This document shows positions 2,612 to 52,751 of a DNA stretch of 64,000 nt, one piece after another. Position 1 is the first letter of the stretch. Each line of letters starts with the position of its first letter. The translations under genes were made by a program, and so were the position numbers. The notes beneath the pieces were generated by a model. It was not told the DNA's origin and made no database searches. It worked only from the letters and a program-made list of their open reading frames with translations. Source of the DNA: a virus; IMG/VR virus record IMGVR_UViG_3300049846_001037, positions 1 to 64,000 of that record, one strand, 5' to 3'.

Positions 2612-3148
2612 TCAGTTCAATTGCTCCAAAGTATCACTTTCAAAGATTTCACCTGGTGTCAAATAGCTTGTGTCGGTATCGCTAAATCGAATGCCCTGTT
2701 GCCAGAACAAAATGCCTATATATTCACTGCACCATATTCCGTAATTGTTAGCTCTATTTTTACCAAAAAATGTTATCACATGGCTCAAGCCGACCTTTTT
2801 CACCAAATACTTGATCAGGATTCCAAATTGACCCAAAAGATCATATTTCTCGCCGTAGAATTTGTAGGCTAGTTCTATGAGGGCATTAGCATCAAAATGA
2901 GCTTTGACTCTAGAAAGGTAAACTTCTTTGGTGGGATCGTTGAGGTAAACGCTGAGGGGTATTATTTGGACTCCCTTTCCCCTGTCTGATTCAATGATGA
3001 GTCCGTTGCCAATATACAGGGCCGTATGGTTTACATTGCTTTCAGTAACCCATCGGATTGATCTGCCTATCCAATCTTCACTTCTTACACTTACAATATC
3101 GCCAGGTCTGGCATAGTGACGGATGAAGTTCTCGTCTCTGACTGGCAT
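2612..3148 (-). CDS. NlpC/P60-superfamily (YiiX-like, permuted) cysteine hydrolase
   Basis: 178 aa. The sequence shows GDIVSVRSEDWIGRSIRWVT (16-35), then NHTALYIGNG with candidate catalytic His41, then IIES with Glu53, and WCSEYIG with candidate nucleophile Cys140. His before Cys is the circularly permuted order of the YiiX/YebB branch of the NlpC/P60 papain-like superfamily. Such enzymes cleave amide or ester bonds, including peptidoglycan cross-links. Next to a holin-like gene it could be the endolysin, but lying after the fibre genes it could also be a virion cell-wall hydrolase. There is no signal peptide. The start at 3148 has AAAGGGGG upstream. Confidence 0.7.
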   Translation of the reverse strand: MPVRDENFIRHYARPGDIVSVRSEDWIGRSIRWVTESNVNHTALYIGNGLIIESDRGKGVQIIPLSVYLNDPTKEVYLSRVKAHFDANALIELAYKFYGEKYDLLGQFGILIKYLVKKVGLSHVITFFGKNRANNYGIWCSEYIGILFWQQGIRFSDTDTSYLTPGEIFESDTLEQLN

Positions 3149-7654: not shown

Positions 7655-10600
7655 TTAGAATATCCTGTGTATAGTAGCCCTTATTGAAGGCCTTGTTGTT
7701 GCATTGGCTCCAACTGGCGCTATTTGTGCTGCCGTTGTAGTTGCCGTCATTTGGAACTTGATGGTAGATCCACCAGTTACATTGACAAGGAATTGATTGC
7801 CAACTTCCGAGAACACGCTATTGGCTGTCAGTGTTGCGCCAACTTGACTTCCAGCTACCTCAGCGCCATCTTTAACGGCTCTTATTTCAATGGTTGAGGC
7901 TGGCGTAGATGTTCTGTTGACTGTTGCTGTGAAGTTCACCGCATAGACACCACCAACCGTGCCAGTAAACAATGTTCCTCCCGCCGTGTGAGTCCAGCCA
8001 TCCAGCAAGACATTGGTGTTAAAAGTGATATCTTGGAATGAATTAGCCACGCTGACTGTCTGGGTTGTTGTGTCGTAAGAATAGGCATAGCCTCTTGCGT
8101 TGACGCCAGATATCTCGTTAGCGAACAAGACGTTGACAGTTGAGGAAACAGATCCAATATTGCTTGTGCCAGAGTTGTTGACGACAATGTTGGCACCACT
8201 TCCCAGTGTCAGCGATGCATTTGCTGTTAGGGTGTTCCCTGTGATCGAGGTAATGTTTGCCACCTGACCAAGTATTGCTGTTCCAGAAATAGTCGTTCCA
8301 GTAATACCACCAAAGGAAGCAACCTGACCCAAGAACGAGGTTCCAGAAATCGTATTGCCAGTGATAGACGTTATGCTGGCAACTTGACCCAAGAATGATG
8401 TTCCTGAGATGATGTTTCCAGTAATCGATGTGATGTTGGCAGTTTGACCAAGTATTGAGACGCCAGAAATGCTTGTCGTTCCGGTGATGGTAGCGAACTT
8501 GGCGCTGGTGCCATTCAATCCACCAGTCATTGCATCGCCAGTGATATGAACAAACGAACCAGTAGCCACCAACTGGAATCTATTCCAATCAGTTGAGGTC
8601 AAGTAGCCATCAGTAGTCGATGTAGACTGACCAATACCAATAGTGCTGCCAGTTACTAGGATTGGGGCTGTACCAGTGATGATTATGTTCGACGTAGAGC
8701 CAGATATAGTCAGAACATTGGCTGTTGAAGATAACGTGACAGATCCAATGCCAGATATTTGCTTAAACTCCAACGTGTTCAGGTTCTTGCCAGAGAATAT
8801 TGGCTCACCAGAACCAAGGTTGCTGCCGTTTGTGACTACAGCACTACCAGACAGATTAAGCGTATCGATGGCGTTGATGTTTTTTGCTACCAGCGTATTG
8901 CCACTGATGCTTGTGCCAGTCAGGTTCGTTGCATTGAGCGTTGTAATGGTTGCAAGCGGAGACGTTAACGATGTCGTATTTGTTATCGTTTGGGCATTGA
9001 TGGTTGAGCCAGTAATGAGCGTGACGCCAGTGATGTTGGTGAAGACCGCAGTTGTACCAGTGAATATTTGACCGCCGACAACTGGAGAGAACGATGAGGT
9101 TAGAGCATTTATCGTTCCACCAACAACTGATGTAGTTCCAGATATGGTGTTGCCAGTCAAACTCGTGGCATTAATGGTGGTAGCTGTGATAAGCGGAGAA
9201 GTCAACGATGTTGTATTGGTTATCGTTTGAGCGTTGACGCTTGATCCGGTGATGTTGGTGCCAGTGATGTTGGTGAATACTGCCGTTGTGCCAGTGTGAA
9301 TCTGTCCACCAACAACGGGTGAGAATGATGATGTTAGAGCGGTTACTGTGCCGCCAACAATGGTGGTTCCACTTATGCTGGTTCCAGTGATGCTCGTGAA
9401 GTTGGCGGAAGTTCCACTCAAACCACCAGTCATGATACCACCAGCGGTATTTAGAGGGACATAGCTCGTGGCGTGATTGTGGTCGCTTCTAGCAAAACTG
9501 TTAGCTATACCACCATCATTGACAGTGTTGGTTAGATCAATGGTCGATGGCGTGGAGGTTGTGAGTGGATCAGCGCCATTAGGAAGATGTCTTGATGCAT
9601 GCCCAGATGGAACAATACCACCAACAAGGTTAACATTAGTGATGCTGTTTCCACCCATATCCAAACCACCAGTCATGGCTCTTGTGCCGTTAACTAGGAG
9701 GTATTGGGTATGGTCGTCACTTAGAAGACCCAACAATTGGTTGTGGTATGTAATACCACCGCCTCCCACAACCGATGTAGCCTTATAGGATGGCGTTGGT
9801 CTTGTGTCTTCTATTTCAATAATAGTTCCAGAGCCTTGCTGAACTATGATATCAGCAATGTGAATGATTGCATCTTTGAAGTATTCTGGTTGAGTTGGGG
9901 ATGCTGCAAGACTGGCTCCAGAAAAGCTTACATACTCGCTTTGAGCATACAAGAATAGCAAGACATCTGCACCGCCAGCATACCACATGGCATGTTTGGC
10001 GTAGTATCCAGATGTCATTGCGGTCAAGCCGCTGCTGTTGAGATCAATTTGTGTATTATTGATTTGACCAGTCAGGTTATAGTTACCGCTCCAAACTATG
10101 CCAGTACCTGCGACCGTATGGTATATTTCAGCAAAAGCAATTGGGTTTGTCTTTGGGGCTGGTTCGTACTTGTGAGTAGAGTAGTAATACTCTCCTCCGG
10201 TCATATCAAAATAGAGTCCAGATGGATTTGATATGACAAGACCATTAGAGACAATGCCACCAAAGACATCTCTTAGATACTCATCAACCTTGTTTCCAAA
10301 GTGATGGGCATCCATGCTGATATTGCCAACCGAAGTAACATAGGTTTCATTGGCTACAACTCTTCCAAGCAATATCTTTGTTACATCACCATTAATAGCG
10401 GAGGATGACTTGGAGATGTTACCATTAGCATCAACAAAGACATAGACATCATCCCAGGCTGCAATACCTGTATATGTCTGGGTTGGCCAGGTTTGTTTAA
10501 TCAGAACATCATTTGACTCAAGATATCCTATGCCAGCATTTACCTTAACAGCCAAACCAGAGCTTGCTGGCAACTGCACCATGGTTCCACTGGTTATCAA

Positions 10601-13549
10601 TCCCATTGTGGATCCGTCTTTCCAAAGCTGGGCTACCTCAGCTAGAGAGGACTGAGTTGGTCCGGCATAGTATGCGCCCACCGAGAAGGTGGAGAAGTCT
10701 TCTGGGTCTCCAGCAAGAGTTGTAACCAAAGGTGATGCAATGTTTGTCTTTTTTCTTGCAAATGTTCCCTGAAGTGATCCATAGCTTGTGGGATGCTCAA
10801 TAGAAACATCATATCCGTTGGCTATCAATGTCAGAGCATTTGCAATGAGCTGTGTTGGACCACCAGTATTGGGATTAGAGATACCGGTAGAGAATCCATC
10901 AATGAATGTATTCAACAATCTGACTTCTGAATTATTGTAGGCCGTAATAGCTGTCGAACCCGTAACTGCTGGGTAAGGTGGGTTCTGGATGATGGTATTG
11001 TCGGCCTGGAAGAAGTTTCCAGAACCATTGATGACAGCAAACCTTGTCAGTCCACCATAGACATCCGAGAACAATGAGTCCTGAACATGAATGGCATTCT
11101 GAGAACCAGAGTTCAAAACATCATTATTGATCGTGAAAGCCTGCTTGATATTGCTCAATGGAAGTGATGTTAAATTGAAGCAAGCCAAGTAGTTGGAGTT
11201 ATTGTTCTCAGGTGTTAGTTGAGCTACACCCCATGTTGCGCCAAGGTAAACCCTATACATGGACATGTAACCATTGCTTCCAGGTTCATACCAATTCAAT
11301 AGGTATGAGCCATGATCAGTGGTGCCCATGAGGGTTAAGTCTGTAAGGCTTGCTGTGGTTGTTCCGCTAAAGAGGTGCTGACCTGGGAAAGCTGCATTGA
11401 TGATGGTCGTTGAAGCATTTTCACCTCTAACGGTGACGTATGGCTTTAACGATATTGGGTTTAACTCAGTAAAGACACCAGGACCAACTTCAATGACGTA
11501 TTGGGATGTGGGACCATTGTCGGTGATAGCAGCAAGAGCAGCTTTGACGCTGGTGAAATCACCACCCTTTTGTGCAACCGTTATTATATGCTGATCTTTG
11601 TTAGCTAAGAAGAATGGTGCATTGGGGTTGATGTCATTCTTTAGATATGGAGAATAGGCAGAGAGAAATCCAGTTGCTCCTGATGATTGGACTGAGATGT
11701 TGTAAGTGTTCTCATTAAATGCAACTGCATAGCCCCTGAGGTTTGGAGCTGACCCATCCTCTGGTATGGATATACCTGTAGCCCAGTTCGAAATACCAAG
11801 AACAGGCAAGCTTACTCTAGCTCCATCCAATATCTCTAGACCCTTACCAGTTCCGTCAACTCCGATCAAAGCCGATGCTCTTGTTGTGAGGAACAAGCCT
11901 GAGCCAGATGCAACGACGCCAATGGGTGGATTGGATGCGCCTGCTATGACGTAGAAGTTCTCACAAGATACTTCTAGTGGAGTTCCGCTAACAGAAATAA
12001 ACTCAAAACCATGATCAGATGTGTTATCTTGCGTTGTGTCAGCATATTCAAAGTAGAACACGTTGGTCGTGCCGCTATTAGCAATAACCCTAGCTGCGCC
12101 GTGGCAGTTCTCAAAAGCAACCTTGTGAATGAGCGTAAAGTCACCAGGATTGGTCGAAACAAGACCATGATATCCCACTGGAACATTTTGAATGGTGAGG
12201 AAAGAGAGGGTAGTTGATTGCCCAATGTGGAAAAGGTCGTTTGATCCAGTTGGTTGTATTCTGACGGCATATTGGTCTTCACCCTGTACATATGTAAACT
12301 CTGGTACGGTTAGCTGGGGCTCGGAGTATATGCCAGGACCAACAAGAATCAAGTATCCATGATCTGCAGTAGGAGGATCAAGGTTGGTGTTGATGTAGTC
12401 AATGGCCTGATAGATGTGTTGGAAGTCCCCACCCTTCTGTGAAACTGTAACAGCATGATCCTTGCGGTACGTCATGAAGAACGTATTTGCTTCACTAATA
12501 AATTGTTTATCTAACGGAGTATAGGATATCATGTAACCCGTAGCACCAGAGCTCTGTATATACACGTCATATCCGGTGTTAAGGTTAAATGGAGTTGAGT
12601 TAAGGACTATGTTTGGGGAGCCCTCGTCCTGAGGCACATAGACACCTGTAGCCCAGTTTGAGATGCCCAATACTCCAGCATTAATATTGGCTCCGCTTTC
12701 GGTTACAACAGCATATCCAGTACCGTCAACACCCTCCATTGCGGCGGCTTTAGTTGATACGGTTAGACCAGAACCTACGGCATGTACGCCATAGTCTGGA
12801 TTTGTTACATCGCCATAGGTATAGAAGTTTTCACAAGAAACATAGCACTGAGATCCACTGACTGCTGTAAATCTGAATCCAGTTTGACCAGCATTGGCTG
12901 TGGCATCAACATACTCAAGGTAAAGTGTATTGATGTTTCCAGTATCGCAGTAAGAGTCAATGCCGTAGAAGCAGCCAGCAAATGAGACCTTATGGAGTAG
13001 ACCATACTGGTCTACATTGTTGATCTTTAGTCCAGCGTAGCCTGGATTGGAGTTCTCAATGGACATGAAGCCGATTGAGAACGGACCATTAGCCTCAAAG
13101 GTATGTCCAGTGCCTGTTGATACAACCGTAACTGCGTACTGGTCAAGACCAAGGATATGCACGTCTGTAGGAATAACGATGTCGTCTTCTTCGTATCTGC
13201 CAGGATAGACAAGCACAACCCAAGGCTCAAGAGGCGTTGGCATTTGAGTTGCAGCATAAGCGGCAGCATCTTTGATCGATGAGAACTGTCCTTGTCCTGG
13301 GTTCTTCTGGACGATAGCGGTTTTGGCCGGGCTGAGGCGTGGGTCATTGACTAGAACATTGAAGACGCCACTGCTGTCAACCGTGACAACTTGCGACCAA
13401 GCATTGCCAGATCCAAAATAGTGGAAACCGCCACCGTCTTCCCTGAGTGCTAGGGAGCCAGTAGGTGCAATAGAATTACCAGTCGTAGGAACTGCATCTA
13501 CGTCTAGGATGTGAACTTGGTTGACTGTTATTCTGCCTTGGTCGCTCAT
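7655..13549 (-). CDS. Giant tail fibre: three beta-helix domains, repeat shaft, C1q-like tip
   Basis: 1964 aa, the largest gene here. After a short N-terminus (residues 1-80) come three tandem right-handed beta-helix-like domains, each beginning with a VxPGxY-type strand: LVYPGRYEEDDIVIP (about 110), LVGPGIYSEPQLTVPEF (about 400) and VGPGVFTELNPISLKP (about 690). Near residue 1285 is HNQLLGLLSDDHTQYLLVNG followed by TRAMTGGLDMGGNSI and then HASRHLPNGADPL, motifs widespread in phage fibres. An ISG-repeat shaft like that of the 1064-aa fibre follows. The last 150 residues (GYAYSYDTTTQTV to the end) look like a C1q/TNF-type jelly-roll tip. The beta-helices could bind or cut polysaccharide, but I cannot identify catalytic residues. 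Confidence 0.75.
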   Translation of the reverse strand: MSDQGRITVNQVHILDVDAVPTTGNSIAPTGSLALREDGGGFHYFGSGNAWSQVVTVDSSGVFNVLVNDPRLSPAKTAIVQKNPGQGQFSSIKDAAAYAATQMPTPLEPWVVLVYPGRYEEDDIVIPTDVHILGLDQYAVTVVSTGTGHTFEANGPFSIGFMSIENSNPGYAGLKINNVDQYGLLHKVSFAGCFYGIDSYCDTGNINTLYLEYVDATANAGQTGFRFTAVSGSQCYVSCENFYTYGDVTNPDYGVHAVGSGLTVSTKAAAMEGVDGTGYAVVTESGANINAGVLGISNWATGVYVPQDEGSPNIVLNSTPFNLNTGYDVYIQSSGATGYMISYTPLDKQFISEANTFFMTYRKDHAVTVSQKGGDFQHIYQAIDYINTNLDPPTADHGYLILVGPGIYSEPQLTVPEFTYVQGEDQYAVRIQPTGSNDLFHIGQSTTLSFLTIQNVPVGYHGLVSTNPGDFTLIHKVAFENCHGAARVIANSGTTNVFYFEYADTTQDNTSDHGFEFISVSGTPLEVSCENFYVIAGASNPPIGVVASGSGLFLTTRASALIGVDGTGKGLEILDGARVSLPVLGISNWATGISIPEDGSAPNLRGYAVAFNENTYNISVQSSGATGFLSAYSPYLKNDINPNAPFFLANKDQHIITVAQKGGDFTSVKAALAAITDNGPTSQYVIEVGPGVFTELNPISLKPYVTVRGENASTTIINAAFPGQHLFSGTTTASLTDLTLMGTTDHGSYLLNWYEPGSNGYMSMYRVYLGATWGVAQLTPENNNSNYLACFNLTSLPLSNIKQAFTINNDVLNSGSQNAIHVQDSLFSDVYGGLTRFAVINGSGNFFQADNTIIQNPPYPAVTGSTAITAYNNSEVRLLNTFIDGFSTGISNPNTGGPTQLIANALTLIANGYDVSIEHPTSYGSLQGTFARKKTNIASPLVTTLAGDPEDFSTFSVGAYYAGPTQSSLAEVAQLWKDGSTMGLITSGTMVQLPASSGLAVKVNAGIGYLESNDVLIKQTWPTQTYTGIAAWDDVYVFVDANGNISKSSSAINGDVTKILLGRVVANETYVTSVGNISMDAHHFGNKVDEYLRDVFGGIVSNGLVISNPSGLYFDMTGGEYYYSTHKYEPAPKTNPIAFAEIYHTVAGTGIVWSGNYNLTGQINNTQIDLNSSGLTAMTSGYYAKHAMWYAGGADVLLFLYAQSEYVSFSGASLAASPTQPEYFKDAIIHIADIIVQQGSGTIIEIEDTRPTPSYKATSVVGGGGITYHNQLLGLLSDDHTQYLLVNGTRAMTGGLDMGGNSITNVNLVGGIVPSGHASRHLPNGADPLTTSTPSTIDLTNTVNDGGIANSFARSDHNHATSYVPLNTAGGIMTGGLSGTSANFTSITGTSISGTTIVGGTVTALTSSFSPVVGGQIHTGTTAVFTNITGTNITGSSVNAQTITNTTSLTSPLITATTINATSLTGNTISGTTSVVGGTINALTSSFSPVVGGQIFTGTTAVFTNITGVTLITGSTINAQTITNTTSLTSPLATITTLNATNLTGTSISGNTLVAKNINAIDTLNLSGSAVVTNGSNLGSGEPIFSGKNLNTLEFKQISGIGSVTLSSTANVLTISGSTSNIIITGTAPILVTGSTIGIGQSTSTTDGYLTSTDWNRFQLVATGSFVHITGDAMTGGLNGTSAKFATITGTTSISGVSILGQTANITSITGNIISGTSFLGQVASITSITGNTISGTSFLGQVASFGGITGTTISGTAILGQVANITSITGNTLTANASLTLGSGANIVVNNSGTSNIGSVSSTVNVLFANEISGVNARGYAYSYDTTTQTVSVANSFQDITFNTNVLLDGWTHTAGGTLFTGTVGGVYAVNFTATVNRTSTPASTIEIRAVKDGAEVAGSQVGATLTANSVFSEVGNQFLVNVTGGSTIKFQMTATTTAAQIAPVGANATTRPSIRATIHRIF
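10700..13310 (-). repeat. Triplicated beta-helix coding module
   Basis: Three units of about 290 codons share the order VxPGxYxE, then a GxDQYAVxV/GENAS strand, then SFxxxxNFYTYG or SCENFYVIAG, then VLGISNWATG (units 1 and 2). Units 1 and 2 are clearly closer to each other than to unit 3. Confidence 0.6.
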
Positions 13550-43891: not shown

Positions 43892-45853
43892 TCAAAAGTT
43901 ACCCTTTTGCTGTTTGTGTAACAAATCAAGGGTTTGTTGTTCCATTTGCATAAACTTCTTGTGTAAAGACTTCTCATCAATCATAACATTAAATGACAGG
44001 TTGACTCCGCCACCGGCTCCACCAGCTCTCATTCTGTCCTTAAAGGGTTGGGCTTTTGCCATTGGAACAACCTGATTGCCAGCGTGGACCATCATCAAAC
44101 CACTGCGGGTAACATCAGAACCAATAGCGCTATGACGTATTCCGCTAGTTTTTTCTTGTGGCTGATCAACCTTGTCGAATGCATCGCCCATCTTTTTGGC
44201 AGCTTCCTTTTCCTTGTCTGTGCCTTTCCATCGAGCCAGAAGCTTCCATATAAAAAGTATGGGTTTGGCAATCATGCCGACCAAGATTTCCTTGAGCATG
44301 TCAAACATTCCCTTAGTTGACATATTGTTGTCGATGGCGGCTTTGTGTATCTTTTCCAAGTCACTCTTTGCCGCACCTTCATCCATGCCACCAGACATGA
44401 GTCTTTGGAAGACCTGCGTGGTTTGCGTGTCCATGCCGACCTGCTGACCCATCTTTTCAATCATCAACTGCTTGGTCATTGGATCAGAGATGCCACCAGT
44501 TGTAGCGTTCAACATTCCTCTGAATGATTGAATTGTCTTGCCAGCATCAAACTTACCAGCGCCAGGCAAAGCAAAGTCAGAACCTCTTTGCTGCATCTGG
44601 AACAACGTCTGAGCATAACCACCGGACATTCCCGACAACTTGCCCATGAAGACCTGCCAGCCCTCTGAGGCTTTGGTGATGCCCAAGATACCAGAAGCAA
44701 TCCTATTGATGTCGGCTGCATTGGCAGCAAACTTCAAACTCTTTAGAGCGCCAGTCATTCCATTGACAACTCTAACAACGCTGTCAGCAGACATACCAAC
44801 GTCTTTGAATGCTTCGCCAAGAGAAAAGACCGTACTAACCAACTCAGACATCTTGCCAAAGCCAGCGTCAGCAGCCTTTGAAGCTACTGTAAAGATCTTG
44901 TTATAGGTATCGGTTAGTTGTTTAGCATTCCTCGAATCTTTGCCAAACGTCCTGACGATCTGAGCATATTGTTCTGCAACTTGGGCAGTGCTCTGATTGG
45001 TGGCCTTAGCAAATGACATTACATCAAGAGCAAGGTTATTAAGTGCGTCCCCTGTCTGCGGAATTACTCCAAGAGCCTCAAGACCAGTTGATTTCAGTTC
45101 TCCATAGATCTGACCAGCTTCCTTAACGGTTAAACCATATCTAGTCATCAACTCTATCTGATTACTAAATAGATTCTGAGACTCTTTCCTTGTGTTCTCA
45201 AATGAATCGGCAAACTTTCCACTCTCAGCAGAAGCCTTGTGCAGCTCACCACCCATCATCCTTACGCCGTCGATGATGTCAGCAATAAAACCTATGATAA
45301 TACCCCAAGGACCAAGCGCCTGAAGCATTTGCTTTGGGTCTTGAGCAATACCTATGCCTCCGGCTCCTGTTTTTGCAGTACCCTGAGCGACAGAGGTTGC
45401 GGTTGTGTGCCCACTTTCGGTTTGGAAGGCTCGCTTTGCACTGAGCTTAAGATCAGAAAGATAAGCCCTTAACATCTGACCTTTCTTTCTCATGATGTCT
45501 AGTTCTTGATCTTGAATCTTTCTAGCCTTTTCATTTTGAAGATTGATGTTGTTTAGGATTGATTCCTGCTTCTCTAACTCAACATCCATATTAACGAGAG
45601 TCTTTAACCTCTGAGCCTCAATGGAAGCCAAAGCCTTGTTGGTCTCAGCAATCTTCTTCAGAGCAGCGTATTCTGTTGCATACGTCTTCATCACCTGCTG
45701 TCTTAGACCCAAAACAGCATTTGCTTCTGATTTAGTGTTTTTTGTAGCCAAGTAAACTAGCTGAGCTTTCTTAGAAAGATCTACAGAAATCTTAAGCGCC
45801 TTTTGATAGGCGTCAGCTAGCTCTTTGGCTTGAGCTGGTGTTAAGTCGGCCAT
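43892..45853 (-). CDS. Tail tape measure protein
   Basis: 653 aa. The N-terminal 140 residues are a long charged coiled coil (YAALKKIAETNKALASIEAQ). Then comes a Gly/Ala-rich hydrophobic segment (LGPWGIIIGFIADIIDGV, about 183-200), then the TP901/T4-like tape measure core with repeated helices such as FGKMSELVSTVFSLGEAFKD and ADSVVRVVNGMTGALKSLKF. A second hydrophobic helix lies near 525 (ILVGMIAKPILFIWKLLARW). The protein is compatible with a tail of roughly 95-100 nm if the usual 0.15 nm per residue holds. It lies between an unknown gene and the tube adaptor. Hydrophobic segments may later form the DNA channel. Confidence 0.8.
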   Translation of the reverse strand: MADLTPAQAKELADAYQKALKISVDLSKKAQLVYLATKNTKSEANAVLGLRQQVMKTYATEYAALKKIAETNKALASIEAQRLKTLVNMDVELEKQESILNNINLQNEKARKIQDQELDIMRKKGQMLRAYLSDLKLSAKRAFQTESGHTTATSVAQGTAKTGAGGIGIAQDPKQMLQALGPWGIIIGFIADIIDGVRMMGGELHKASAESGKFADSFENTRKESQNLFSNQIELMTRYGLTVKEAGQIYGELKSTGLEALGVIPQTGDALNNLALDVMSFAKATNQSTAQVAEQYAQIVRTFGKDSRNAKQLTDTYNKIFTVASKAADAGFGKMSELVSTVFSLGEAFKDVGMSADSVVRVVNGMTGALKSLKFAANAADINRIASGILGITKASEGWQVFMGKLSGMSGGYAQTLFQMQQRGSDFALPGAGKFDAGKTIQSFRGMLNATTGGISDPMTKQLMIEKMGQQVGMDTQTTQVFQRLMSGGMDEGAAKSDLEKIHKAAIDNNMSTKGMFDMLKEILVGMIAKPILFIWKLLARWKGTDKEKEAAKKMGDAFDKVDQPQEKTSGIRHSAIGSDVTRSGLMMVHAGNQVVPMAKAQPFKDRMRAGGAGGGVNLSFNVMIDEKSLHKKFMQMEQQTLDLLHKQQKGNF

Positions 45854-45871: not shown

Positions 45872-47152
45872 TTAGTTTTTGGTGCTAGGAGGGGTATTTT
45901 TTAGGCTCTGCACCAATTTGGTGAAGATGTTAAGGGGGTGGTGGTTCTTGCTTGCATAAAGGTTGGCAAGTTCAAGAATTTGTTTCTTGTACTGATTTGC
46001 TACCTGTGGATTCTGCAGAGCTTCCATAGGAATTTTCTTCCACTCAAAATCTCTTTCTAAAGATTCCTTTTGAGCTGTCTCGACCTTCTTCAAAATAACA
46101 TCGACCTTTCTTGCTGTAGGGATGTTTTGCTTTTGAAGCTCTTCTCTCAACCTGATCAATTGAGGATAGTAGTTTATGGCAGTATCCAAATCAGCAAATG
46201 CTTCATTTGGAATTCCAAGTTTTTGAACTATTTCTTTCTGTGTGTTCCTTTGTTTTTGTAGAGATTCCTTTTGTTTTTGTTTATCTTCGGGACTCTCAAC
46301 TCCAAAGAATTTTTTATCTTCAGCAGACATCCATTCAAGATCGTCTTCCTTCTCTTCTTCAAAAGCATCAAAAATGGCTTTTGGAACAGCCAGATCTGTT
46401 TTGGATAGACCTGTTGCACTCTTTGGATTCTTACCAACAAGAAAGATTGTGTCATCCTTGGCTGTGTCAAAAACAATGTATTTGCCATTGATGGGCTTTA
46501 TTTGTTCAAGTTGTTCAACTATCTTTGCATGAAGTTTTGGATTTGCTTTCTTTAGGTCTTCAAGTCTTTCTTGGTTAATGGTGACGAGCTCTTTTTTCTG
46601 AAAAGCGGTCTTTGTAAAAGAGGTGAGTTTTCCAAATCGATATCCCTGCTGTTGAGATACGAGTTCAGGCACAGCCTCCTCAATACTTGAGCCGGTTCTT
46701 CTCTTGTACTCAAGATTCATGGCTCTATATTCGGCTGGATACTCAACTCTGATCTTCTCGTAGATTTGCTTAACAGGAACGTTTACGGTGCAATAGTCGA
46801 GAAGTTCTTCTATTACAACTCCAATGGTTGCGTTGTTCTTTTCTCCAATATCCTCCGCCATTTGTTTGACAGCCCTTTGGACGGAGGCAATGAGGTCTTC
46901 GCTTGGAGAAAAAGTGTCGCCAGCAAACTCTGTCTCAAGTGTTCCGCTGAACGAAACAGTTGTTTTGTTGATTCGAACTACCACACCAACACTGATCGTA
47001 TTCTTTATTACTACAGGAGGCTCATAGGCAAGCAGGAGATTTCCATCCCAAGCAAGACCATAATCTTGTAGGTTTTGAGCCAATGGAATACCGCCAGGAT
47101 GCTCTATCTTGACAGCCTGACGAAAACTCATGATTTTAAATGGTTTTTCCAA
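45872..47152 (-). CDS. Unknown tail protein between chaperones and tape measure
   Basis: About 420-427 aa. The start is uncertain. TTG 47152 has an AGAGG site 9 nt upstream, while ATG 47131 (MSFRQAVKIEH) has none that I can see. The N-terminal half is alpha/beta with TISVGVVVRINKTTVSFSGT and KNNATIGVVIEELLDY. The C-terminal half is highly charged and helical (SPEDKQKQKESLQKQRNTQK). No domain is recognised. It sits next to the tape measure, so it may be a tail assembly factor or part of the tape measure complex. If ATG 47131 is used, the start SFRQA recalls the SxRQADL leader of three head-side proteins. Its upstream region overlaps the plus-strand promoter at 47167. Confidence 0.55.
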   Translation of the reverse strand: MEKPFKIMSFRQAVKIEHPGGIPLAQNLQDYGLAWDGNLLLAYEPPVVIKNTISVGVVVRINKTTVSFSGTLETEFAGDTFSPSEDLIASVQRAVKQMAEDIGEKNNATIGVVIEELLDYCTVNVPVKQIYEKIRVEYPAEYRAMNLEYKRRTGSSIEEAVPELVSQQQGYRFGKLTSFTKTAFQKKELVTINQERLEDLKKANPKLHAKIVEQLEQIKPINGKYIVFDTAKDDTIFLVGKNPKSATGLSKTDLAVPKAIFDAFEEEKEDDLEWMSAEDKKFFGVESPEDKQKQKESLQKQRNTQKEIVQKLGIPNEAFADLDTAINYYPQLIRLREELQKQNIPTARKVDVILKKVETAQKESLERDFEWKKIPMEALQNPQVANQYKKQILELANLYASKNHHPLNIFTKLVQSLKNTPPSTKN

Positions 47153-47166
47153 AGTATCACTACCTC

Positions 47167-47195
47167 TTGACAAGTATTGGTTTGGGTGTTATAGT
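47167..47195 (+). promoter_or_regulatory. Sigma70 promoter of the plus-strand gene
   Basis: TTGACA (47167-47172), a 17-nt spacer, then TATAGT (47190-47195): a perfect -35, an optimal spacer and 5 of 6 bases of the -10. It points into the gene starting at 47230. It is a host-type rather than a phage late promoter. Confidence 0.8.
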
Positions 47196-47229
47196 TGTCT
47201 CATAAATCGAAACTTTCTTGGAGGCCGCC

Positions 47230-47547
47230 ATGAAGTTCTGGGAAAAGTGGTATTGGGCAACCTACATCCGAGGCGAGAACCCCATACTTTCTTTTATCGG
47301 GGGACTCATCAAGGGGTTTTGGATCCCCATCGTCGTCTCGGCCATCTTCTGCCTGCTCACGGACCCTCAGTTCAAGAGCCATAGCCTGAACCAGTTCGAT
47401 GTGGGAGCCTACGTGGCTTACTACTGCTACTTCTGGAAGGTGGTGTTCTACGCCATCTACAAGCATACCGTTGGATATCTGGTGTATGCGTGGCAGCACT
47501 GGGATGAGGTTGTGAACTTCGTCAGGCGAGTGCTCTGGCTCGATTAG
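47230..47547 (+). CDS. Moron-type two-helix membrane protein, 105 aa
   Basis: It is the only plus-strand gene. ATG 47230 is chosen because GGAGG stands 5 nt upstream; an in-frame TTG at 47218 overlaps that site. The protein starts MKFWEKWYWATYIRGENP and is unusually aromatic (eight Trp in 105 aa). One membrane helix is FIGGLIKGFWIPIVVSAIF (about 22-40); a second hydrophobic, Tyr-rich span covers about 58-88 (VAYYCYFWKVVFYAIY). Roughly three quarters of its codons end in G or C by my count, unlike the fibres and baseplate genes. It has its own promoter and terminator, and its stop (TAG) overlaps the stop of chaperone GT. A host-altering role such as superinfection exclusion is typical of such cargo, but the function is unknown. 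Confidence 0.75.
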   Translation: MKFWEKWYWATYIRGENPILSFIGGLIKGFWIPIVVSAIFCLLTDPQFKSHSLNQFDVGAYVAYYCYFWKVVFYAIYKHTVGYLVYAWQHWDEVVNFVRRVLWLD

Positions 47548-48415
47548 AACTCGATGGTGTCGAACTCAACAGGCCCGTCAGTGGGATCTTGAATGCCCCC
47601 ATTGACGGGCTTTTCCATTGCACGTTGTATGTACTCTAGGTCATCAACTTTAGGCGTGTACATCTCAACCGCCTTGGCATCTTCTGGTCTTTCGTTGAAC
47701 AAGGCCTTCAAGTCGGCAAGAGCCTGATCTCCACCCTCTGCAGCAATAGCATCAAAGAATGTCGTGTTCCTATGGTCGTCGTGGAACAACTTGAGGTCGT
47801 CAGTATTGACCTGCTCACCATTGCGGATCTTCTCAAGGTTGGACATCTTATGACGTTGCTCGATAGCCTTGATGGTTTCCTTTGGATGTGGTGAGACCAA
47901 AGTAGCCAAATACTCAATATAACCCATCATGAGCTCATGTTGATCATTCTGACGATTTACATTGTGCCTCGTCAAGATGTTCCACTGCTCATTGGTTAGA
48001 TTGAGATACTTGTCTTCGTTGGGGACTCCGCCTAACTCGAAAACGACATCGAGTTTACTTGTAATAGCGAAGTCCTTTTTTAGTTTTTTAGTTCTTGCTC
48101 CGTGACATCGCCACCAATTGAAGCCTTAGTGAATATCTCGCTAATGTATTTCTGCTCAAGATTCAGCAAGAACTCTTTGGCGTCTTCCTTGCCCTCTGAC
48201 TTCTCACCATCAACTGAAACAATGATGGATGAAAGAATGTCAATGGTGCTTGTCAACATGGTCTTGATGTCAGCTTTTTCATCGCCAAGAGCCGACATAT
48301 CGACTTCTAGGCCCAAAGTATCACGAGTTGTAAGCTTACGGACAACGATCTTGTGTCCCCCTACCTCGATCTCCTTCTCTACGTCCTTCGAAAATACTAT
48401 TTTTGAGATTGCCAT
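47544..48415 (-). CDS. Tail assembly chaperone GT (product of -1 frameshift)
   Basis: It would be made when ribosomes slip -1 at the A-AAA-AAC site (48089-48083) near the end of the G gene and read on as CTA-AAA-AAG-GAC. The extension of about 179 codons has no good start of its own: the frame stays open from the slip site without an ATG until well inside, and there is no ribosome site. It reads KKDFAITSKLDVVFELGGVP, then NLTNEQWNILTRHNVN, and is acidic and helical. The total is about 290 aa, close to lambda gpGT. It binds the tape measure during tail assembly in known systems. The C-terminal tail (PVNGGIQDPTDGPVEFD) is encoded over the terminator of the plus-strand gene. Confidence 0.75.
47571..47614 (+). 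terminator. Rho-independent terminator of the plus-strand gene
   Basis: On the plus strand the arms 47573-47585 and 47598-47610 pair over 13 bp (GCCCGTCA with TGACGGGC, then G-T, then TGGG with CCCA), with a 12-nt loop and TTTT after it. It starts 24 nt past the TAG. It lies within the coding end of chaperone GT on the other strand. Confidence 0.6.
48034..48055 (-). other. Hairpin downstream of the frameshift site
   Basis: AACTCGA and TCGAGTT pair perfectly (7 bp, 8-nt loop) 27 nt after the slippery heptamer. This is farther than the usual 5-9 nt, so its role in stimulating the slip is doubtful. Confidence 0.3.
48080..48415 (-). CDS. Tail assembly chaperone G
   Basis: 111 aa. ATG 48415 (MAISKIVFSK) is preferred, with GGAGAGG 6 nt upstream, over ATG 48448, which would sit beside the terminator. 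The protein shows IEVGGHKIVVRKLTTRDTLG, the strand-turn-strand and R-kLt-rD pattern usual at the start of phage tail chaperones, then an acidic helical body. The gene lies between tube and tape measure, the invariant location of the G/GT pair. It ends GAA-CTA-AAA-AAC-TAA, which places the slippery site at the last sense codons. Confidence 0.75.
   Translation of the reverse strand: MAISKIVFSKDVEKEIEVGGHKIVVRKLTTRDTLGLEVDMSALGDEKADIKTMLTSTIDILSSIIVSVDGEKSEGKEDAKEFLLNLEQKYISEIFTKASIGGDVTEQELKN
48083..48101 (-). other. Programmed -1 frameshift signal
   Basis: The heptamer A-AAA-AAC (48089-48083) is in the correct phase (X-XXY-YYZ) and followed at once by the zero-frame stop TAA. GGAG (48101-48098) lies 8 nt upstream, like the internal Shine-Dalgarno that stimulates dnaX frameshifting. 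The -1 frame is open for about 179 codons after it. Confidence 0.75.
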
Positions 48416-48450: not shown

Positions 48451-48499
48451 ATTATATTAAAACTGAAGGGCTCAGGCTCGATGGCCGTGAGCCCTTCAG
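48451..48499 (-). terminator. Terminator after the tail tube gene
   Basis: A perfect 12-bp stem (CTGAAGGGCTCA with TGAGCCCTTCAG; arms 48463-48474 and 48488-48499) is followed on the minus strand by TTTTAATATAAT. It lies in the 74-nt gap between the tube gene and chaperone G and may set the excess of tube and sheath over downstream proteins. Confidence 0.75.
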
Positions 48500-48522
48500 A
48501 GTAGTGCTATTTACTTGTGATA

Positions 48523-49017
48523 TTAAACATTGACTGCAACATCGTAGTCAAATGGCGAGTTCTGGCCATCATCAACGGATGTTACGTCAAAGGCTGCTGT
48601 TTCTGAAACTATGATTTCTCCAGTGATCGTCTTAGGATCAGAGTAGCTGGTCATGTAGCAACCACGATAGACAGTTGTTCTGATGTTGGTTCCGTCAGGA
48701 AGCAACAAGATCTCCTGAATATCAATGGGTACCCTCAACTGAGCCAACATTCTGAATGTATCAGCATAGCCGAAGAGATTGATCATCTTCTTCTTGAAAA
48801 GAGCCATCTTGGTTACATTCAACTTGTAGTCAGTCAATTGCCAGATACGGGAAATGATACGGTCGCCAATACCAATTCCTCTGACTGGGGTTGTTGCTCT
48901 GTCCTGAGATGGTTCTAGGGACTGAACAACACCGATGAGGCTTCCATTGACCAAAATCTGGGCCGCAGTGGAAACCGCAATTTGCTGTTGGTTTTGTAGT
49001 ACGTCTGTTAATGCCAT
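48523..49017 (-). CDS. Tail tube protein
   Basis: 164 aa, the usual size for a myovirus tube subunit. It lies 20 nt downstream of the sheath and has LVNGSLIGVVQSLEPSQDRA near 23, RPVRGIG-like segment TTPVRGIGIGDRIISRIW (43-60), and a C-terminal strand pattern GCYMTSYSDPKTITGEIIVS (about 120-139). It is beta-rich, as expected of the two stacked beta sheets that form the hexameric tube. The location directly after the sheath and before a terminator and the chaperones makes the call fairly safe, although no single motif is diagnostic. Confidence 0.75.
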   Translation of the reverse strand: MALTDVLQNQQQIAVSTAAQILVNGSLIGVVQSLEPSQDRATTPVRGIGIGDRIISRIWQLTDYKLNVTKMALFKKKMINLFGYADTFRMLAQLRVPIDIQEILLLPDGTNIRTTVYRGCYMTSYSDPKTITGEIIVSETAAFDVTSVDDGQNSPFDYDVAVNV

Positions 49018-49037: not shown

Positions 49038-50849
49038 TTATAGCTGCGTCCTGATTGTGAACGTGACTTTGATCCTGTTCAATGGGAAGACAGGAACATA
49101 CTGGACCGTTGACAAAATCTCAGTGGGGTTAGACGGGTTAACTGTAACCGTGATGGCCCCGATTGAGCTGATGATGTTGTCTTGAGCCAATTGCTGCATT
49201 GTTGCAAGGATGGTTGACTTGACTGCTGGAACAACAATTGCAGGAATCAACTTCTTGCCGATGTATTGCTCAGTTGTGTATCTGACAGCCTGTGAAACGA
49301 AGTCTGTCAAGGTAACGACTGAGAACTCACCGACTGCTGGATTGGACTGGTCAGTAGTTAGCTGATGTCTGACAAATATGTTGGATCCCAATTTGTCGAT
49401 AACGCAAACACCAGCGCCACCCAAAATGTCCTTCTCAATTTCGAGATAGGTATCGTTGGGGTGTTCCGTTGTCGCAGCGGAGATGTTAACGAAGTTAGAC
49501 AACCTCTGGCGAGTCAATGGTGTAGCAACGTCAGATAGAGGATTGCAGGACAAAGCACCGAAGGCGGTAGCCAAGAATGCGCTATCGACAACGATGTTCT
49601 GGAACCTGCCGTTTGGATCCTGAATCTGGACGGTGCACTTGCCAGGAGCAATGAGCGTTGATCTCTTGTCGTGTAGTGAGTTTTGAGCTTCGAAAACGTA
49701 GGTGTCAACAGTGTCATTGTCACCAACGTTAGCAACACCTAGCGAACCAACAGAAACTCTTTCCTTCTTGTTCTGTGGGCTCGACATGGTTTCGCAGTGC
49801 AACAAAACAGCCTGAAGGATAAGCGACTTCTCAGAAGTCGTTATCTCGTTCAAGCTGGCTCCGCTGCCGACTGTCAAAGGAACAATGATGTCAACCGTTG
49901 AACCCTGCAACTGATTGAGCGAAGCCTGGAAGTCACCAGTTGTTGTTCCAACTCCAGACATCTGAGTTAGGTTAACAACTGAGGCTCCGTTGGCAAAAGC
50001 CAATCTTGCGCCCAAAGTCAATGGGTTCAAATGGTTTAGAACGTAGTTACCCTGACCGGCTCCAGAGGCGATCAAAGTCCACTCAGCCTCAGGACCGTAT
50101 TCCTGAACCACAAGGCTGTAGTCAACAAAGTTCTTTGGAGCATAGTCAGAACCGCTCTTAGCGTAGGTGTAGTCAACAAAGTAGGTTCCCGATAGAGCAG
50201 GAACGGTTGCATATGAATAGCCATAGGCAGTTGATGGAACAGCACCCCATAGCAATGTGCCGCTTGGGCTTAGAACATAGCCGCTGTTGTCTCTTCCAAA
50301 GCCAAGTGAATCAACTCCAGAGACAGTGCCAGAAGCAGGATAGACATAGCCGCTCGTACCAGTGACCGAAACAATGGTCACGCCAGAGTATGAAAGAGCT
50401 ACGTCATGGTTAGAGGTCTGAGTTACCAACTCTCCTTGAACGAGAGTATACATTCCAGTACCAGCTAAGCTTCCCGTGTAGGTCACGTAGAATGAAGCTC
50501 CAACTGCTGGGGTGGTGGAAGCGGGGTATTGGTTGGCGGCCGTGGACCAAACGATTTGGTCGCCAGAAAGGAAGTATCCGCCACCATAAGCACCAGTGCC
50601 CGTTGTGGGCCAATCAACTCTTGCGCCACCAGCGCCTGAGTAATCGTAAACAGAATTGATTGATGTTATTCCTGAGTGTGCTAATGTGTCAGATACTCTG
50701 GAGATCGGTTGAAAGACTGACTCACCAAAGGTGTCTTTGGTGGTGCGGCCCAAGCCGATCAAAGATAGAATGCGAGTACCACCAGGTAGCTGAACGATAT
50801 TGCTATCGATTTCAACTTCGGTGGTTACTCCCGGAGGGGTATAAGCCAT
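49038..50849 (-). CDS. Contractile tail sheath protein
   Basis: 603 aa. It starts MAYTPPGVTTEVEIDSNIVQ, the typical YxxPGVyxxE start of sheath proteins, followed by LPGGTRILSLIGLGRTTKDT. A variable beta-rich insertion (about 80-260) is followed by the conserved core. The C-terminal part shows DVATPLTRQRLSNFVNISAA, VCVIDKLGSNIFVRHQLTTD and VSQAVRYTTEQYIGKKLIPA, with the closing strand LNRIKVTFTIRTQL, as in sheath families whose C-terminal arm links subunits. It is the strongest evidence that the phage is a myovirus. A 172-nt AT-rich gap lies upstream. Confidence 0.9.
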   Translation of the reverse strand: MAYTPPGVTTEVEIDSNIVQLPGGTRILSLIGLGRTTKDTFGESVFQPISRVSDTLAHSGITSINSVYDYSGAGGARVDWPTTGTGAYGGGYFLSGDQIVWSTAANQYPASTTPAVGASFYVTYTGSLAGTGMYTLVQGELVTQTSNHDVALSYSGVTIVSVTGTSGYVYPASGTVSGVDSLGFGRDNSGYVLSPSGTLLWGAVPSTAYGYSYATVPALSGTYFVDYTYAKSGSDYAPKNFVDYSLVVQEYGPEAEWTLIASGAGQGNYVLNHLNPLTLGARLAFANGASVVNLTQMSGVGTTTGDFQASLNQLQGSTVDIIVPLTVGSGASLNEITTSEKSLILQAVLLHCETMSSPQNKKERVSVGSLGVANVGDNDTVDTYVFEAQNSLHDKRSTLIAPGKCTVQIQDPNGRFQNIVVDSAFLATAFGALSCNPLSDVATPLTRQRLSNFVNISAATTEHPNDTYLEIEKDILGGAGVCVIDKLGSNIFVRHQLTTDQSNPAVGEFSVVTLTDFVSQAVRYTTEQYIGKKLIPAIVVPAVKSTILATMQQLAQDNIISSIGAITVTVNPSNPTEILSTVQYVPVFPLNRIKVTFTIRTQL

Positions 50850-52197: not shown

Positions 52198-52751
52198 TAC
52201 TTGGACGCCCCTATGATTTTAGATATGTCCCCGATGTTATGCTTTGTCTGCTGGTCCTTGTTCTCTTGGTCATACAAGAAAGTTACCACTTCCCTGTTGG
52301 TCACAACGACAATGAAGTTTGGAAGCAGTCTTATGCCCTGACTATTGTCTCCAGATATACGCTGGCCAAGGTTTAACTTTTTCAACAACTCAAACAACTG
52401 TTCTCTGGTCAAATATGGCGAGAACCTTTGGTTGTATCTGTCCTGAGCATGAACCGACATCGAAAAGCCAAACTTATCCTTTTCATCTTGGATGTAGTCA
52501 AAGCTAGTGAAACTTGACTTCATGCTTTCAATGTCCAACTTCATCTCAGCGGCCTCTTGCTTTAGCTGCTGGATGTACTTCTCTATCTTTCTGTACTCGT
52601 CTTCACTAGAAGCATTCTGTAGATAGTTCTGCTGTATCTCAATGGCTTGAGTTACATAGCGATACCTCTTCTGCGTATCCTTTAGCTTGTCCTCAAGCGT
52701 CTTATACTTTGGGTCAAGCGCAATGATGCTTCTGAATGAGATGATGATCAT
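52197..52751 (-). CDS. Coiled-coil neck-region protein, 184 aa
   Basis: Residues about 12-85 form a long charged coiled coil (LEDKLKDTQKRYRYVTQAIE, IEKYIQQLKQEAAEMKLDIE). A small alpha/beta C-terminal domain follows (FGFSMSVHAQDRYNQRFSPY, then LPNFIVVVTNREVVTFLYDQ). The VHAQDRYNQRF ... VVTxxxVVTFLY pattern resembles small toxin-like or RelE-type folds only superficially. The ATG overlaps the upstream stop in an ATGA, and its stop shares a base with the next start. Its function is unknown; a tail or neck structural role comes from the context. Confidence 0.5.
   Translation of the reverse strand: MIIISFRSIIALDPKYKTLEDKLKDTQKRYRYVTQAIEIQQNYLQNASSEDEYRKIEKYIQQLKQEAAEMKLDIESMKSSFTSFDYIQDEKDKFGFSMSVHAQDRYNQRFSPYLTREQLFELLKKLNLGQRISGDNSQGIRLLPNFIVVVTNREVVTFLYDQENKDQQTKHNIGDISKIIGASK

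Follow-up and report, generated by a model that had tools for sequence, protein, structure and literature searches.

An early-type antisense cassette of moron type at the tail chaperone junction of a large myovirus

Within the tail operon of an unclassified large bacterial virus, a full transcription unit in antisense orientation was detected (window positions 47167-47612, plus strand). It consists of a promoter, a GGAGG motif, a gene for an aromatic, predicted membrane protein of 105 amino acids, designated P0001, and a terminator hairpin. The window, that is the whole stretch of DNA analysed, comprises 64,000 nucleotides and corresponds to bases 1-64000 of the 205,426-base IMG/VR record IMGVR_UViG_3300049846_001037, a myovirus. 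As judged from the sequence, the cassette is an autonomous, oppositely oriented unit of moron type with a predicted terminator of its own, and comparisons with relatives indicate a long-resident reverse moron and not a recent pick-up. The cassette itself, the classes of its promoter and codons and its conserved position are apparent from sequence.

The features of the cassette and its neighbours are listed in Table 1. In agreement with the initial annotation, P0001 is the only credible plus-strand gene in the 64 kb; each of the remaining plus-strand ORFs either overlaps a minus-strand gene or is short with a GTG or TTG start. The promoter, the GGAGG motif and the aromatic membrane-type product described there were found again, and so was the overlap of the P0001 stop codon with that of the minus-strand GT frame. 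The cassette had also been placed between GT and the next tail gene, which is correct, but this next gene encodes a 419-aa protein and only after it does the likely tape measure gene follow. A terminator was indeed predicted, as a hairpin at about 47571-47612 followed by TTTT (-28.3 kcal/mol, z -4.4, 0 of 200 shuffles as good), but its stem comprises about 15 pairs including G-U instead of the proposed 13 bp. Read on the opposite (tail) strand, this hairpin has CCTGTTGAG after it and no U run, and by its sequence it should therefore not stop the tail transcript. A strict terminator scanner, the rules of which admit only loops of 3-8, listed neither this hairpin nor those of the two relatives described below.

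Table 1. Features of the antisense cassette and the adjacent part of the tail operon (window positions)
Feature	Position	Strand	Basis or remarks
Promoter TTGACA-17-TATAGT, early-type family beginning TTGACAAG	47167-47195	+	11/12; 25.9 bits; twin at genome 165300 (-)
Shine-Dalgarno (SD) sequence GGAGG	47220-47224	+	Read in sequence; GGAGG in G004, AGGAGG in G039
P0001, 105 aa, ATG 47230, TAG 47545-47547	47230-47547	+	ORF; G004 homolog, E = 1.2e-13
Predicted terminator hairpin and TTTT, within the 3'-terminal part of GT	47571-47616	+	Folding
GT frame of the tail chaperone, entered from G by frameshift	47544-47975	-	ORF; aligned with G004 and G039
Tail chaperone G, ending in A-rich stretch ACTAAAAAACTAAAAAAGG beside the GT frame	48080-48415	-	Sequence
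419-aa protein, divergent from cassette	45872-47131	-	Homolog in G004
653-aa protein, likely tape measure	43892-45853	-	By position
Tail tube	48523-49017	-	Used for finding relatives
Tail sheath	49038-50849	-	Used for finding relatives

Some further observations concern the tail genes. The A-rich sequence ACTAAAAAACTAAAAAAGG (window 48070-48100, minus strand) is the place where the frameshift into GT would occur, and a similar A run is located at the same place in the relative G004. Between the tube gene and G, the tail strand contains a strong hairpin, CTGAAGGGCTC...GAGCCCTTCAG followed by TTTT (window 48464-48500, minus strand); HK97 likewise has a putative terminator after the major tail subunit (HK97 record). 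For the likely tape measure protein, no family match was obtained. An N-terminal peptide resembling MIS[YF]RQADLL/F recurs in about nine proteins, which start at window positions 52751, 55386, 56991, and 62309 and at genome positions 86602, 87045, 167538, 168122, and 169332, all on the minus strand, and relatives (G002 L109, G039) have starts of the MNYRHLIAYLGQ type in its place. The shared peptide looks like a reused targeting tag, perhaps packaging proteins into the head.

The initial annotation had interpreted the combination of a host-type promoter and an own terminator as the layout of a moron. While the moron-type unit was corroborated, the idea of a generic host-type promoter brought in from outside was not, the promoter of the cassette being a member of the phage's own early-type promoter family. 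No other plus-strand site of the whole record reaches 11 of 12 matches, whereas the minus strand has 22 such sites. The strong promoters of the minus strand are concentrated at 180-205 kb, upstream of short genes, and an extended motif starting with TTGACAAG is common to many of them. Scored against a matrix of 12 of these promoters, which did not include its own sequence, the cassette promoter reached 25.9 bits, compared to 13.5 bits for the next plus-strand site of the genome and a maximum of 11.2 bits in a shuffled genome. A near-twin at genome position 165,300 on the minus strand (51 bp, 80%, E = 5e-5) drives another stand-alone unit consisting of GGAGG, an 86-aa gene with a GC content at third codon positions (GC3) of 0.77 and its own terminator. 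The probability of an 11/12 promoter occurring by chance in the 100 nt before the ORF was calculated as 0.0006, 0.0013, and 0.0015 for the three records harbouring the cassette. The label 'early' was assigned by sequence alone, from the sigma-70 consensus and the place before short non-structural genes.

The twin cassette with its own terminator (promoter 165300) and another isolated early-type cassette (promoter 164914) were noted at genome positions 164,600-165,300 (minus strand), outside the 180-205 kb cluster. The phage also encodes a sigma-70-family factor with regions 2 and 4 (genome 90,759-91,508, minus strand; Sigma70_r4, E = 2.8e-15). Such a factor would be compatible with a second promoter class serving other genes and is a candidate for the switch to late promoters.

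Codon usage was examined as well. That about three quarters of the third positions of P0001 are G or C, as initially reported, was confirmed (GC 0.47, 0.33, and 0.77 at codon positions 1, 2, and 3). Median GC3 is 0.745 in 18 genes behind promoters of the early type versus 0.47 in 47 tail-region genes (Mann-Whitney, 4e-9). In a two-model codon test, P0001 scored +0.28 per codon towards the early model, while all 47 tail-region genes were negative (-0.49 to -0.10). P0001 thus follows the codon pattern of the phage's own early-type genes, which explains its high GC3. Early expression, one of the possibilities envisaged in the initial annotation, is suggested by the promoter class as well as by the codon usage. 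ARAGORN detected 26 tRNA genes in genome 64-204 kb, all of them at 99-115 kb on the minus strand; this cluster and the GC-rich early-type codons would fit a use of host tRNAs early and of phage tRNAs later.

Relatives were collected through the major capsid protein (80 loci) and then by sheath alignment, tube and sheath both serving as finders. Single-sequence scans with the 419-aa protein and with the sheath yielded no relatives, and alignments of the tube and of a 273-aa protein yielded no new contigs. Among 38 records examined from the capsid loci, one (G004, 35.9 kb) encodes a P0001 homolog (E = 1.2e-13), whose gene runs antisense to the tail genes and is flanked by the ortholog of the 419-aa gene on one side and by the block of GT, G, tube and sheath on the other. 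The promoter TTGACA-16-TATAAT (12/12) and GGAGG precede a gene for a protein of 101 amino acids, which is 36% identical to P0001, retains IRGENPI and GFWIP and overlaps the GT stop in the same way. A long hairpin ending in GCGGGCTTTTCTT lies inside the GT codons. This protein conservation ruled out a spurious ORF. Tail coding on the opposite strand was also considered and rejected, as the 99-aa minus-strand ORF at 47200-47499 has no counterpart of at least 80 aa in G004.

The sheath alignment led to a second record, G039 (127 kb); the sheaths of G004 and G039 are 53% and 61% identical, respectively, to that of the phage. At the same junction, G039 contains an antisense ORF of 78 codons with TTGACA-17-TATTAT and AGGAGG. 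Its stop directly adjoins the GT frame, and the GT codons again contain a hairpin, ATCCTTGCTCAG/CTGGGCAAGGAT, with TTTTG behind it. The promoter has GG directly before the -10 box, as other promoters of that phage do. The product shares only the FWIP membrane motif with P0001 and has one clear membrane segment, not two, and the A1 profile gave no match in G039 at E<=10. However, FWIPVVLVLAFCFFT of G039 aligns with FWIPIVVSAIFCLLT of P0001 with an hhalign score of 27.0, whereas none of 200 shuffles preserving the hydrophobic layout exceeded 19.4. Position, orientation, signals, the shuffle-controlled hhalign result and the short motif together suggest that the two genes are orthologs. The hairpins differ among the three genomes and are located at different places in GT. 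Comparison with relatives had been proposed initially as a test of the plus-strand gene, and ORF, promoter and tail-to-tail stops proved to be conserved.

In several more distant relatives the cassette is absent from the junction. In Bacillus phage G, Mycobacterium phage Myrna, Rhodococcus phage E3, and Gordonia phage Stormageddon, as well as in six metagenomic relatives (L118, L119, L122, L123, L124, and L125), the chaperone gene runs straight into the tape measure gene. Mechanically predicted antisense ORFs of L121 and L126 overlap the chaperone region itself, and these two were counted neither as having nor as lacking the cassette; L120 ends too early for comparison of the junction. The 419-aa protein is also missing from the distant relatives; in G039, a 722-aa protein takes its place. 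The two-gene insert, composed of the cassette and the 419-aa gene or its stand-in, therefore characterises a single clade, within which it has persisted despite large divergence. In a quite different myovirus, L130 (IMGVR_UViG_3300027983_000014), an unrelated antisense ORF of 107 codons (10512-10835, minus strand) without a match in INPHARED has a short chaperone-like frame on one side and the next long gene on the other. Its stop overlaps the chaperone-like frame, and TTGTAA-17-TATCAT and AAGGAG are found upstream. The junction may thus have received antisense genes more than once.

Morons are usually regarded as patchy additions and are best known from temperate phages. Regarding the properties of such elements, the cassette has its own promoter, also kept in G004 and G039, and a predicted terminator consisting of hairpin and TTTT, the relatives also having hairpins. 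It lies between genes that are adjacent in relatives lacking it, although the insert here takes in the 419-aa gene as well. Its composition differs from that of the surrounding genes (GC3 0.77 versus a median of 0.47), which does not apply to the orthologs (0.49 and 0.44). Three divergent records of large myoviruses thus retain a reverse-oriented moron at a single tail junction. Of the protein sequence, little beyond a membrane motif is preserved, while the layout of antisense orientation, promoter, SD, hairpin and tail-to-tail stops stays the same, which argues for a lasting function tied to the junction. Position and layout being conserved, the cassette is more interesting than the window by itself suggested.

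P0001 contains 26% aromatic residues, and its membrane location is predicted from two putative segments at about residues 26-44 and 59-77. The initial annotation could liken the protein to nothing recognisable, and no match was obtained in the protein family libraries searched, including Pfam and holin families. Relatives were detected neither in INPHARED by tblastn up to E 1, nor in IMG/VR by single-sequence patterns, nor in GTDB genomes, and a two-sequence alignment revealed none in IMG/VR beyond G004. The AlphaFold model was poor (pLDDT 60), and the Foldseek result was therefore set aside.

The best clue to the function is the position, since HK97 gp15 is encoded at the same junction. By analogy with HK97 gp15 and T4 Imm, the early-type antisense cassette is tentatively proposed to specify an early-made inner-membrane exclusion protein that would protect the infected cell, a reading that falls somewhat short of an even chance. 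Host RNA polymerase with the housekeeping sigma factor would read the cassette from the phage's early-type promoter soon after infection, and the transcript would stop at the hairpin hidden in the GT codons. P0001 would then insert into the host inner membrane by its two predicted membrane segments and interfere with DNA entry at the step where the tape measure protein of an incoming phage contacts the membrane, so that further phages would be blocked. Later, transcription of the tail operon would cross the cassette in the opposite direction and should switch it off; expression before the tail operon and silencing by opposing tail transcripts are thus to be expected. A more far-reaching version, which appears unlikely, sees the position itself as the timing switch of an early exclusion gene: on early, silenced automatically late, and passed on with the tail genes under its protection, next to the tape measure region, the relatives of which it would exclude. 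Nothing was found that points to lysogenic conversion, a role considered in the initial annotation.

Exclusion was preferred to the other functions considered, namely a general role in host takeover, control of lysis and interference by transcription as such. An early membrane protein could also inhibit or redirect a host envelope enzyme, a transporter or a membrane-bound defence system, and with this the early type of promoter and codon usage would agree, as would the fast divergence of P0001, which fits an arms race with a host target, and a second early-type gene (promoter 180489) for a small hydrophobic protein. Such a role is nevertheless considered rather unlikely, since the phage has a whole early region for genes of this kind, and the location at one tail junction in three records would be left unexplained. 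Small size and two predicted membrane segments might likewise suggest a holin or antiholin, but there are no lysis-type genes adjacent, the only peptidase-like candidate seen being 44 kb away (2612-3148), an early-type promoter would provide the wrong timing for a holin, and no holin family was matched, making lysis control improbable. That the transcript and not the protein is effective, holding down the tail operon early in infection by antisense transcription, might be suggested by the antisense orientation and the strong promoter that all three genomes have in common; however, the hairpins would end the transcript just inside GT, so that little tail sequence would be covered, and the kept SD and the protein-level match (E = 1.2e-13) show selection on the protein, which renders interference very improbable. 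A recently acquired foreign gene with its own signals, as GC3 (0.77 versus the tail-region median of 0.47) and absence from distant relatives might indicate, is hardly credible in view of syntenic orthologs in two phages with such divergent sheaths, a promoter of the phage's own class and a GC3 matching its early-type genes.

If the proposed exclusion function holds true, the theme of exclusion genes beside the tape measure gene, known from HK97, would extend to large phages with contractile tails. It would also provide a search rule for exclusion proteins, namely antisense genes with early promoters at chaperone/tape-measure junctions.

Among known systems, HK97 gp15 is a superinfection exclusion moron for a small predicted inner-membrane protein with a putative terminator of its own (PMC10883804; HK97 record). 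It follows the frameshifted chaperones and precedes the tape measure gene, corresponding to the chaperone/tape-measure junction of the cassette. In contrast to the antisense cassette, gp15 is in sense orientation, has 62 aa and belongs to a temperate siphovirus; in the present phage, the 419-aa gene separates the cassette from the likely tape measure gene. HK97 gp23, annotated as 'reverse moron product', is similar by layout: it is an antisense single gene with a putative own terminator in the tail region. The junction is a different one, between I and J, and the unit overlaps the sense moron gp22 and not merely the end of a tail gene. The phrase 'reverse moron' was not found in the literature searched. 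T4 Imm blocks DNA entry of superinfecting phage in a lytic myovirus (PMC11436027; T4 record note). Imm, too, is small and acts at the membrane, and its gene is grouped with non-structural genes, but that gene lies outside the tail operon and is not antisense. No sequence match of P0001 was obtained to gp15 (hhalign probability 0.5 over 11 columns) or to Imm (hhalign probability 0.7 over 14 columns; no Pfam match), and the likeness therefore concerns a possible mode of action, not family membership. The twin cassette of the phage itself (genome 164,925-165,300, minus strand) resembles the antisense cassette in its near-identical promoter and leader, GGAGG, GC3 of 0.77 and own terminator, but it is located on the minus strand outside the tail operon, and its product, 86 aa in length, is unrelated and lacks the membrane motif.
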